This document shows, one piece after another, positions 19,383-58,376 of a DNA stretch of 64,000 bases; position 1 is the stretch's first letter, and every line of letters begins with the position of its first letter. The stretch lies in contig NJBO01000008.1 in the NCBI GenBank assembly GCA_005223075.1, forward strand, positions 1 through 64,000, written 5' to 3'. Both the position numbers and the translations under genes were made by a program. Source of the stretch: a candidate division TA06 bacterium B3_TA06 (lineage in GTDB: Bacteria; Hydrothermota; Tepidihabitantia; B3-TA06). The notes below the pieces were generated by a model. That model did no database searches. It worked only from the letters and a program-made list of their open reading frames with translations, and was not told the DNA's origin.

Positions 19383-19455
19383 CTCGTCAGGTTTACATTG
19401 CACTCGTCACGATTTCCGGGGTCCCCGCGGCGACGCGTTAGCGGCGTCGTGGGGT

Positions 19456-19515
19456 AAAAAAAGGTGGTCAAAAGCTGGTCAAAAGCTACCCAAAAGGTGG
19501 ACAAAAGATGGACAA
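19456..19515. repeat. 11-bp phased A-tract array, copy 1
   Basis: A-tracts begin at 19459, 19470, 19481, 19492, 19503 and 19514, exactly 11 bp apart, within a degenerate unit of the form GGNCAAAAGCT. Phased A-tracts curve DNA. A longer relative lies at 58203-58330. Confidence 0.8.
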
Positions 19516-19636
19516 GAGCGCGACTGAGTCGCGATTGCTCCGCAAGCGTCGCCCTCCGGTGCAAAAGTCAAAATGCAAATTGTAAATTGAAAGGGTCAAG
19601 GGGTGACGCTCACAGCGATCGGCTCACAGCTGATTG

Positions 19637-19682
19637 TTCGGGGTCCCCGGGCGGCTGCGTAGCAGACGTCTGGGGTAAAAAA
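19637..19682. repeat. GGGGTCCCC hairpin (family 1)
   Basis: TTCGGGGTCCCC, a GC-rich imperfect stem, then TGGGGTAAAAAA. Same constant flanks as 19417-19460, 38141-38181, 38186-38226, 38301-38345 and 58331-58376, with a different stem in most copies. Confidence 0.7.
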
Positions 19683-19699: not shown

Positions 19700-19758
19700 G
19701 GGCTGACCTGATACCCTATGGGATAAAAATATCCCAAGGGGCACACTGAGGTCAGCCC
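19700..19758. repeat. Nested hairpin: TACCC element inside a GGGCTGACCT palindrome
   Basis: Outer arms GGGCTGACCT (19700-19709) and AGGTCAGCCC (19749-19758) pair perfectly. Between them lies TACCCTATG-stem-CAAGGGGCA (19712-19743). Confidence 0.75.
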
Positions 19759-36194: not shown

Positions 36195-37166
36195 ATGACT
36201 AAGAAGATTCTCATAACCGGTGCATCCGGTTTCCTCGGCTCACACGTCTGCGAAGCAGCGCACGATGCAGGGTATGAAGTCCACGCACTCATACGCTCTA
36301 CAAGTTCAAGGCAGTGGCTTAAGCATCACTGGCTAAATATCCACGTTGTCAATCTGGATGAGCTTACCGGCCTTTCGGGGGTGCTTAAAGGGATGTATGC
36401 AGTGATCCATAACGCCGGTGCTCTGCCCGGATCAACGCGGGAGGAGTTGATCCGGGTTAACGTGGACGCTACCAGGATCGTGGCACAGGAGGCAGTCAAC
36501 GCCGGGGTGCGTCGGTTCGTTTTCGCCTCCAGCCGTTCTGCAGGTGGGGCTAACCTGGGGAGTTTCCTTAAGACCGAGGATGAGCCCGACGGTCCAACTT
36601 GGGGCTATGGGGGGAGCAAGAAACGGGCAGAGGAAGTCCTGCGTTCTTTCCGCGAGAAGATGGATATCGTCAGCATGCGATACGTCACCATCTACGGCCC
36701 GCGGAACAGACACCTCCTGCGGCTCTTTAAGATGCTTTCGGGTTCGGTTGTTCCCATTATGGGGTTCAGGCCAATCTACATGCCTATGGTGTACGTAATC
36801 AATGCGGCGAGTGCAGCGGTTGCAGCACTTAAAGCTCAGGTGAAGTCCGGCGTGTTCTACTACATCTCAGACGGGGTGGAGTACACGATCGATACCCTGT
36901 ATGACTTCATCAGCGATGCGTTGGGCAAAAGAGGGATGCGTGTGCGGGTGCCACTTTGGGTTGCATCTTCGGCAGCTTGGTGGATGAACCGGATCATGAA
37001 GAAGGGAACCGGTTTCTCGCCCGACGTAATAAAGGAACGGCGTTCACGCTACCGGTTGGTATCCTGTGAACGTGCAAGAAGGGAATTGGGCTGGAGACCG
37101 ACCGTGATGCCAAAAGAGGGGTTTGCCGAGACGGTGGCGTGGTACCGAAAACAGGGGTGGTTGTGA
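36195..37166 (+). CDS. NAD-dependent epimerase/dehydratase (extended SDR), copy 2
   Basis: 323 residues. ILITGASGFLGSHVCEAAHD, NAGALPG, catalytic WGYGGSKKRAEE and YVTIYGPRN. SD GGCAGGAAAG. The first 185 nt are almost identical to copy 3, while the rest is clearly diverged. It overlaps copy 3 by 4 nt (GTGA). Confidence 0.86.
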   Translation: MTKKILITGASGFLGSHVCEAAHDAGYEVHALIRSTSSRQWLKHHWLNIHVVNLDELTGLSGVLKGMYAVIHNAGALPGSTREELIRVNVDATRIVAQEAVNAGVRRFVFASSRSAGGANLGSFLKTEDEPDGPTWGYGGSKKRAEEVLRSFREKMDIVSMRYVTIYGPRNRHLLRLFKMLSGSVVPIMGFRPIYMPMVYVINAASAAVAALKAQVKSGVFYYISDGVEYTIDTLYDFISDALGKRGMRVRVPLWVASSAAWWMNRIMKKGTGFSPDVIKERRSRYRLVSCERARRELGWRPTVMPKEGFAETVAWYRKQGWL

Positions 37167-38140
37167 GTAAACAAAAGAAGGTTCTCGTCACCGGTGCATC
37201 CGGTTTCCTCGGCTCACACGTCTGCGAAGCAGCGCACGAGGAAGGGTATGAAGTCCACGCACTCATACGCTCTACAAGTTCAAGGCGGTGGCTTAAGCAT
37301 CACTGGCTGAATATCCACGTTGCCAATCTGGATGAGCTTACCGGCCTTTCGGGGGTGCTTAAAGGGATGGACGTGGTGATTCACAACGCAGGTGCGACGT
37401 CAGGTTACAGCAAGGAAACCCTTCAAAAGGTCAACGTAGAAGGAACAAAAGCCATTGTGGAGGAGTCAATCAAGGCCGGGGTAAAGCGATTTGTCTACGT
37501 ATCGAGTCAGGCAGCAGGCGGACCAAGCAAAGGAACATATCCGAAGACCGAGGATGATCCCGACTGCCCCATCTCCACCTACGGCTTTAGCAAGAAGACC
37601 GCAGAAGAGATACTTTTAGGGCTTCGCGATAGGATCCAGATAGTGATTCTTCGCTATCCGGTTATCTACGGACCGCGTGGAGAAGAGATGTTACCCATCT
37701 TCAAGATACTTTCCGGGCCTTTCCAGCCGGTGATGGGGTTCAAGCCCCTCTATACATCCATGATCTATGTAACCGATGCGGCTCAGGCTGCGGTTGCGGC
37801 ACTGCAGGCGAAGGTCGCTTCCGGCTCGATCTACTACATCGCCGACGGAGTTGACTACACCCTTGAGTATCTCTACGATTTGATCGGTGAGGCTCTGGGG
37901 AAGAAGGGGTTGCGTATCAAGCTGCCCCTCTGGATAGTAAGTATTGCCGCCTGGTGGGTTCATGATGTGCGCAAAAAGAGGCCTTCATTTAACCGCGAGG
38001 AAGTGCGGGAGTTTAAGGCTCGCTTCTGGCTTGCCTCCTCTGAGAAGGCCATGCGCGAACTTGGTTGGAAACCCCAGGTTTTGCCTCAGGAAGGATTTGC
38101 CAAGACGATACGATGGTATCGTTACAAAAGGTGGCTATAA
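37163..38140 (+). CDS. NAD-dependent epimerase/dehydratase (extended SDR), copy 3
   Basis: 325 residues from the GTG at 37163; the longer open frame overlaps copy 2. Motifs are KVLVTGASGFLGSH, NAGATSG, catalytic TYGFSKKTAEE and YPVIYGPRG. Its TAA is followed directly by a hairpin repeat (38141). See copy 2 for the shared 5' segment. Confidence 0.86.
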   Translation: MSKQKKVLVTGASGFLGSHVCEAAHEEGYEVHALIRSTSSRRWLKHHWLNIHVANLDELTGLSGVLKGMDVVIHNAGATSGYSKETLQKVNVEGTKAIVEESIKAGVKRFVYVSSQAAGGPSKGTYPKTEDDPDCPISTYGFSKKTAEEILLGLRDRIQIVILRYPVIYGPRGEEMLPIFKILSGPFQPVMGFKPLYTSMIYVTDAAQAAVAALQAKVASGSIYYIADGVDYTLEYLYDLIGEALGKKGLRIKLPLWIVSIAAWWVHDVRKKRPSFNREEVREFKARFWLASSEKAMRELGWKPQVLPQEGFAKTIRWYRYKRWL

Positions 38141-38226
38141 TTTACCCCATAAAGTTACGAAGTAACTTTATGGGGACCCCGGGCATACACCCCACACGTA
38201 CGCTCCGCGTCCGTGCGGGGACCCCG
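38141..38226. repeat. Two tandem ACCCC hairpins (family 1)
   Basis: First: TTTACCCC, with 38145-38158 pairing perfectly (14 bp) with 38162-38175 around loop GAA, then GGGGACCCCG. Second: 38190-38203 pairs 12 of 14 positions with 38207-38220 around loop TCC, then ACCCCGAAG. Flanks are the same; stem sequences are unrelated beyond the CCCC/GGGG end. Confidence 0.85.
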
Positions 38227-38252
38227 AAGAGCGAGAAAGTTGTTTAAGGTTA

Positions 38253-38300
38253 ATGGCTGAAGTAAAAAAGATTCTACTCACAGGCGCGTCCGGATTTCTT
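38253..38300 (+). pseudogene. 5' stub of a fifth SDR epimerase gene
   Basis: Sixteen codons, MAEVKKILLTGASGFL, match the start of the neighbouring epimerases, then the sequence switches abruptly to hairpin 38301-38345. The frame runs on through the hairpin to a stop at about 38380 without epimerase similarity. A gene truncated by, or deleted up to, a hairpin element. Confidence 0.8.
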
Positions 38301-38345
38301 TTACCCCGCAACGCTACTTTGTACCGTTGCGGGGACCCCGAAAAA
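38301..38345. repeat. ACCCC hairpin (family 1) at the break of the SDR stub
   Basis: TTACCCC with perfect 10-bp stem CCCCGCAACG (38304-38313) / CGTTGCGGGG (38325-38334), then ACCCCGAAAAA. Confidence 0.85.
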
Positions 38346-58143: not shown

Positions 58144-58202
58144 TACAATCACCCCTTAAAAGAGCGCTTGAACCCTGTCTGCTGAGGCAATTTCGTGGGC
58201 TG

Positions 58203-58330
58203 AAAAAGCTGGTCAAAAGTTGGACAAAAGCTCCCCAAAAGATGGACAAAAGCTGGACACGCTCTTGAAGATTATCTTGGAAAAAAGCTGGTCAAAAGAT
58301 AGACTAAAGTTGGCCAAAAATTGGACAAAA
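58203..58330. repeat. 11-bp phased A-tract array, copy 2
   Basis: A-tracts start at about 58204, 58215, 58226, 58237 and 58248, then at 58283, 58294, 58305, 58316 and 58327, all 11 bp apart within each group. Units follow GNTGGNCAAAA. Confidence 0.8.
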
Positions 58331-58376
58331 TTCGGGGTCCCCGGACGGATGCGAAGCAGACGTCTGGGGTGAAAAA
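58331..58376. repeat. GGGGTCCCC hairpin (family 1)
   Basis: TTCGGGGTCCCC, imperfect stem, CTGGGGTGAAAAA; closest to 19637-19682 (both contain AGCAGACGTCTGGGGT). Confidence 0.7.

Follow-up and report, generated by a model that had tools for sequence, protein, structure and literature searches.

The segment at 38,141–38,345 of the window (the whole 64,000-nt stretch analysed here, from contig NJBO01000008.1 of candidate division TA06 bacterium B3_TA06) carries three hairpins with constant ends and different inner stems, and raises the question of what these hairpins are and how their stems come to differ. An earlier note on this DNA had listed six copies in the window with the shared ends TTTTACCCC and GGGGACCCCG. 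All six are present as covariance-model matches, with positions off by only 1–3 nt (Table 1), and the common ends around differing inner stems are real: the exact pattern TTTTACCCC-N10–40-GGGGACCCC occurs at 17 sites in the B3_TA06 genome, versus none for the reversed pattern.

Table 1. GGGGT hairpins and the broken gene start in the window; bit scores are those of the covariance model.
Feature	Coordinates	Strand	Stem or basis	Score (bits)
GGGGT element 1	38139..38183	-	stem ATAAAGTTACTTCGTAACTTTAT	50.3
GGGGT element 2	38184..38228	-	stem GCACGGACGCGGAGCGTACGTGT	60.1
GGGGT element 3	38298..38342	-	stem GCAACGGTACAAAGTAGCGTTGC	57.4
GGGGT hairpin	19415..19460	+	24-nt centre	53.4
GGGGT hairpin	19637..19681	+	stem GGGCGGCTGCGTAGCAGACGTCT	65.9
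GGGGT hairpin	58331..58375	+	stem GGACGGATGCGAAGCAGACGTCT	66.3
Truncated epimerase gene start, MAEVKKILLTGASGFL	38253..38299	+	sequence; alignment with G003	

Element 1 lies immediately 3' of the stop codon of an epimerase ORF (nt 37,139–38,140), and elements 1 and 2 are arranged head-to-tail at a spacing of exactly 45 bp. An epimerase gene start (Table 1) is broken exactly at element 3, both in the window and in genome G004, and is intact in G003. Tandem epimerase paralogues are present in the window with different-stem hairpins between them, and 11-bp repeat arrays like GCTGGTCAAAA / GGTGGACAAAA adjoin several hairpins (window nt 19,460–19,530 and 58,200–58,330; L002, L003 and L005).

Read on one strand (minus at 38,141–38,345, plus at the other three window sites), the unit is 5'-TTC GGGG T CCCC-N23-GGGG T(A/G)AAAA-3' and spans 45 nt, as sequence conservation extends from -3 to +6 around a 36-nt core with nearly no signal outside. 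The centre is 23 nt long in 108 of 128 copies and nearly free in sequence, with 104 different stems among these 108. The stem has 14 pairs, consisting of a C4:G4 base and 10 variable pairs around a 3-nt loop, and the favoured tip of the centre is RCGAAGY. All 60 aligned copies, which had been gathered with GGGGTCCCC fixed, carry the GGGG(T) tag. A few hairpins (G000:C1:66202 and similar) have a loop longer by 19–21 bases, giving a centre of 42–44 nt and not 23.

A covariance-model search, proposed as a check in the earlier note, was run with a model built from the 60 copies without selection for inner pairing, and returned at least 150 GGGGT hairpins with covarying stems in the B3_TA06 genome (150 of 1165 candidates were scored). 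Within 810 kb there are 78 distinct copies (84 matches minus 6 opposite-strand duplicates), or about one per 10 kb, which extrapolates to some 230 genome-wide. The seven other genomes in this family all have the two-end pattern, and 53 more distant relatives lack it; the relatives with the pattern are labelled candidate division WOR-3 / Stahlbacteria. Matching ends with N23 were also detected in gut Clostridia and in one Cloacimonadota and one Caldisericota MAG, and the hairpins are patchily spread across phyla. The rabbit gut Clostridia MAGs (L021–L065) include three genomes with about 95–154 or more copies each, where the hairpin often sits within the loop of a TGTCATTCCGAGC...GAGGAATCCCC repeat. 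Viral contigs gave no exact matches to the hairpin pattern. On larger stretches, 95 of 117 copies are intergenic, while mechanically called ORFs cover 88% of the sequence. Hairpins also occur in frame inside long ORFs (L170:12993, which is also present in G003, G000:C9:77135 and G000:C1:236105), and these recall the Rickettsia palindromic elements. Hairpin orientation showed no link to GC skew, which is weak in this genome.

Pairing in further copies is well above chance, the opposite of the outcome that the earlier note had named as refuting. In 61 copies gathered with a search pattern that set no inner-pairing requirement, the inner stem has 8.0 of 10 Watson–Crick pairs, against 4.45 ± 0.19 for arms exchanged among copies. 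Covariation scores 0.510, compared with 0.194 for shuffled and 0.05–0.12 for slid partners. A compensated A-T to C-G change separates the hairpin at C3:144735 from its counterpart in genome G001, and among pairs of stems differing at two places, both differences fall within one base pair in six of 16 cases (all G-C to A-T), which is few but supportive. Structure is selected and, as the mismatches indicate, so is folding of the single strand.

On the named strand, mismatches in the sample from this genome are G.T in 100 cases versus A.C in 9, and G.A in 64 versus C.T in 4. This sample was drawn with a mild pairing score under which G.T ranks as paired, which favours G.T, and the first stem pair is G.T in most copies; without the first pair, the counts are still 35 G.T versus 9 A.C. 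Among the 61 copies gathered without a pairing score, wobble-type mismatches are likewise nearly all of one strand (A.C on the printed strand, with one G.T). The rabbit-gut Clostridia, whose stems are different and were collected with no pairing score, gave 57 G.T versus 5 A.C, and pair 8 is T.G in 32 of 35 copies. Binomial probabilities are 1e-20 (G.T) and 6e-15 (G.A) for the first sample and 3e-12 (G.T) for the Clostridia, but the cells are not independent and the values are indicative only. The G.A mismatches are concentrated at stem pairs 6–7. As for the imperfect stems described in the earlier note, many of the imperfections seen on the plus strand are A.C, which are G.T wobbles when read on the strand of the hairpin, G.A being the other frequent mismatch. 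Of 91 copies, 77 fold more stably as the named strand than as its complement and four less stably, and most of the folding energy (DNA parameters) is lost once arms are swapped, from -12.7 to -5.4 kcal/mol. A double-stranded protein site would not give strand-biased mismatches, whereas a folded single strand would; since the G.T and G.A deviations fall largely on one strand, it is a single strand that folds.

The origin of stem diversity was assessed in 22 orthologous stem comparisons, hand-collected from alignments. Over 23 positions, 18 comparisons show 0–3 differences and four show 9–15, with nothing in the range between; the mean difference of unrelated stems is 11.4. The wholly replaced stems are those at C3:55893, C18:21502, C14:12602 and C14:13549. 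At C3:55893, the flanks are 96 and 98% identical to those of G001 up to the hairpin, and the stems are GCGACTTTGTGAGCAAAGTCGT vs GCGAAGCTACGCAGTAGATTCGT. The stem at C18:21502 differs from its G001 orthologue and is identical to that of C3:44349, where the flanks differ, so that one stem occurs at unrelated loci. Short-read chimeras would be unlikely to fake such replacements, as the ends in common do not reach the length of an assembly word. Orthologous stems are unchanged or replaced whole, and site diversity therefore does not come from stepwise regeneration of palindromes. Of the two mechanisms offered in the earlier note, selection on structure thus stands, given the covariation and the compensated change, and regeneration does not. 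Near-identical stem pairs are in excess over a random-stem null, which means that stems are not independent draws and that copying therefore occurs.

Whole units are also gained and lost. The array at 38,141–38,345 has four hairpins in G004, three in the window and two in G003, and the shared stems are identical or nearly so among the three, amid genes that are about 77% identical. Element 1 has the same stem in G003 and one loop change in G004; element 2 is identical in G004 and absent from G003, where a different stem follows element 1; and element 3 is identical in G004, with G003 having an intact gene at that place. The family is thus old enough to be common to species with 77%-identical genes, and conservation of orthologous stems in such a setting could also mean a host function. 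Elsewhere, one unit is found versus two at an orthologous site (L050 vs C2:134720), and the unit at C3:14294 is missing from G001 by deletion, as judged from the outgroup G003. Indels between orthologous sites measure 36, 45, 46 and 48 nt, and such varying boundaries are what slippage deletion would give. Head-to-tail neighbours 44–46 bp apart with different stems are found in the B3_TA06 family, and 45-bp tandems occur in Clostridia. None of the orthologous comparisons captured a clean new insertion for which the polarity was known and the target site defined.

We consider it probable that GGGGT hairpins are REP-like, non-autonomous 45-nt mobile elements recognised as folded single strands. 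Among the three roles considered in the earlier note (termination, RNA processing and transposition), mobility fits best, with whole units gained or lost and stems replaced. The active form would be the folded strand, of '-' orientation at 38,141–38,345, 5'-TTC-GGGG-T-[CCCC-10 nt arm-3-nt loop-10 nt arm-GGGG]-T(A/G)AAAA, probably acting as DNA and not as RNA. An enzyme supplied in trans and working on single-stranded DNA may read the unpaired GGGGT tag and the invariant C4:G4 base, together with the G.T favoured as first pair, the tip RCGAAGY and the mid-stem purine mismatches. Such an enzyme would ignore the stem sequence, and the stem could therefore drift as long as pairing is kept. An enzyme presumably moves the hairpins, probably with a copying step. 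New copies would arrive as whole hairpin units, often head-to-tail next to an older copy, and units would be lost via deletions bounded by short direct repeats such as ACCCC and AAAAAC. Gain followed by loss would swap one stem for another within unchanged flanks, in which case stem replacement would probably reflect insertion plus deletion and not gene conversion. No autonomous form, in which these complementary arms would enclose a gene, was found within 4 kb in the sequence stretches fetched.

The strongest alternative, though rather less likely, is that recombination exchanges the stems (through gene conversion, or short single strands annealing at the constant ends and loop) without any transposition, with palindromes being kept because both arms travel together. 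Whole-stem replacement within unchanged flanks speaks for this, as does a chimera joining the arms of two hairpins, found at C3:148897 in G001. Stems are replaced in like manner in an unrelated second family (GATCTTTT...AAAAGGAGC), an observation for which no family-specific transposase would account. An exchange process of a general kind is therefore a serious competitor of such a transposase, and the likeness hints that hairpins may be exchanged by one common process and not moved by a single transposase. The shared ends of GGGGT hairpins are, however, merely about 9–13 nt, and recombination explains neither the spread to new sites nor the strict 45-bp tandems with different stems.

The second family has the form TGCGATCTTTT-stem-AAAAGGAGCA, with 52 of 55 stems distinct and covarying; its stems are 90% paired versus 46.5 ± 2.7% with arms swapped. 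Its stems are swapped between orthologues, the palindrome often lies just upstream of the GGGGT hairpin, and examples in the G000 stretches are L162 near 14,830, L170 near 13,620 and L149 near 4550. A third palindrome type, ACCCTAT-variable stem-AAGGGGCAC, has a stem that differs by place and is found at nt 19,700–19,745 of the window, in the flanks of L018 and at L016.

It is unlikely that the hairpins are classical REPs moved by a RAYT (a Y1 HUH transposase), for which the cognate gene would be L017 (G000:C2:240523). GTAG REPs, the substrates of RAYT/TnpA-REP enzymes, are short, abundant, mostly intergenic imperfect palindromes that are strand-specific and have stem irregularities (PMC3733652, PMC8266576), and the enzymes work in a strand-specific manner on hairpins that have a 5' tetranucleotide and a mismatched stem (PMC8266576). 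GGGGT hairpins share the unpaired 5' G-rich tag at the foot, the strand specificity and the irregular stems. L017 itself lies between two hairpins of the same orientation, one about 345 nt upstream of the gene and the other about 200 nt downstream, and this bracketing is suggestive but confounded by a GTAG REP of its own. Canonical GTAG REPs are found about 70–150 nt from L016, L017, L018 and L071 (four of the five Y1 loci examined), whereas the nearest GGGGT hairpin is about 1.4–1.5 kb from L016 and L019 and more than 4 kb from L018. The stems of the GTAG REPs near these four RAYT-like Y1 genes differ, an example being GTAGGGGCCGACCTTTAGGTCGGCCC. The tag of the GGGGT element is GGGG(T) and not GTAG or GTGG, and no GTAG-tagged form appears among the matches listed from the covariance-model search of the B3_TA06 genome. 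The Y1_Tnp profile was searched in the B3_TA06 family and in nine other genomes, and RAYT-type Y1 genes are present in most of the hairpin-carrying genomes searched. The profile did not detect one in G004, in the Clostridia genome G061 (at least 154 hairpin copies) or in several further hairpin-carrying Clostridia; MAGs are incomplete, so these absences weigh little. GGGGT hairpins also depart from GTAG REPs in that stems are almost all unique to one copy, where a REP sequence recurs in many, in that neighbours stand head-to-tail at 45 bp and are not inverted, and in that no RAYT demonstrably has them as its flanking REP.

More improbable still is a structurally selected RNA element of the cell (acting in mRNA stability, as an RNase site or as a small RNA). 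The wobbles tolerated on one strand and the stems kept at most orthologous sites amid diverged genes are consistent with one, but orientation in tandem gene pairs is unbiased (26 vs 19, P = 0.37), and of the 117 copies, 22 lie between divergent genes (24 lie between convergent genes). Rfam returned no family for the hairpin, whether at the gathering score or with E-values as high as 1, and occurrence across phyla is patchy, so the RNA-processing role proposed earlier finds no support in orientation or Rfam. That the hairpins are intrinsic transcription terminators, as also suggested, is scarcely credible: the stem is GC-rich, stable and between genes, but there is no T run 3' of it on either strand (flanks TAAAA and ACCCCG), terminator-like sites at the hairpins number zero, fewer than in shuffles, and about a quarter of the intergenic copies are between divergent genes.

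Comparison with known systems places GGGGT hairpins near REPs. Like these (20–40 bp palindromes, high copy number, extragenic), they have a 36-nt core, many copies and a mostly intergenic location, but their nearest regular neighbours, head-to-tail at 44–46 bp, are unlike the inverted doublets of REPINs and BIMEs. CGTC-tagged REPs are palindromes found in several phyla with no dedicated transposase (PMC3733652). GGGGT palindromes are likewise tagged, present in several phyla and without a dedicated transposase found; however, CGTC REPs have a CGTC (TGTC/CCTC) tag and an 8–9 bp stem, compared with a GGGG tag and 14 pairs here, and CGTC dimers are mostly head-to-head, with head-to-tail negligible. 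The ends of IS200/IS605 and integron attC sites are recognised as folded single strands by shape and a few bases (PMC8266576 and general knowledge). Unlike in IS200/IS605, no transposon body is seen between the GGGGT arms in the stretches fetched, and attC core sites (RYYYAAC/GTTRRRY) were not seen by eye in the hairpins. The terminal inverted repeats of TIRYT genes, which are linked to Y1 transposases, have the consensus GGGGWSAS (PMC3733652) and also start with GGGG, but GGGGTCCC does not fit it, as an A is needed at position 7; in the stretches fetched, GGGGT ends were not found as terminal repeats of a gene. No earlier description of GGGGTCCCC or GGGGACCCC as a bacterial repeat was present among the matches listed, in a search largely without subscription papers.

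The GGGGT family works like a REP, but it carries the tag of neither described superfamily, and no dedicated transposase was found for it in the genomes searched. Tentatively, it may constitute a further, third superfamily among tagged palindromes, occurring in four phyla or more and spread by machinery that acts on single strands and reads only shape and tag, so that stem cassettes would be interchangeable and whole stems swapped at fixed sites. With its constant ends, fixed length and nearly free stem, the family separates pairing from sequence and bears on how REPs spread and why their stem is free to change but has to stay paired. Because stems at orthologous sites turn over in an all-or-none way, they allow mutation, exchange and new insertion of palindromes to be told apart directly, and the strand bias of G.T and G.A mismatches is a simple statistic to tell the functional strand of a palindromic repeat.
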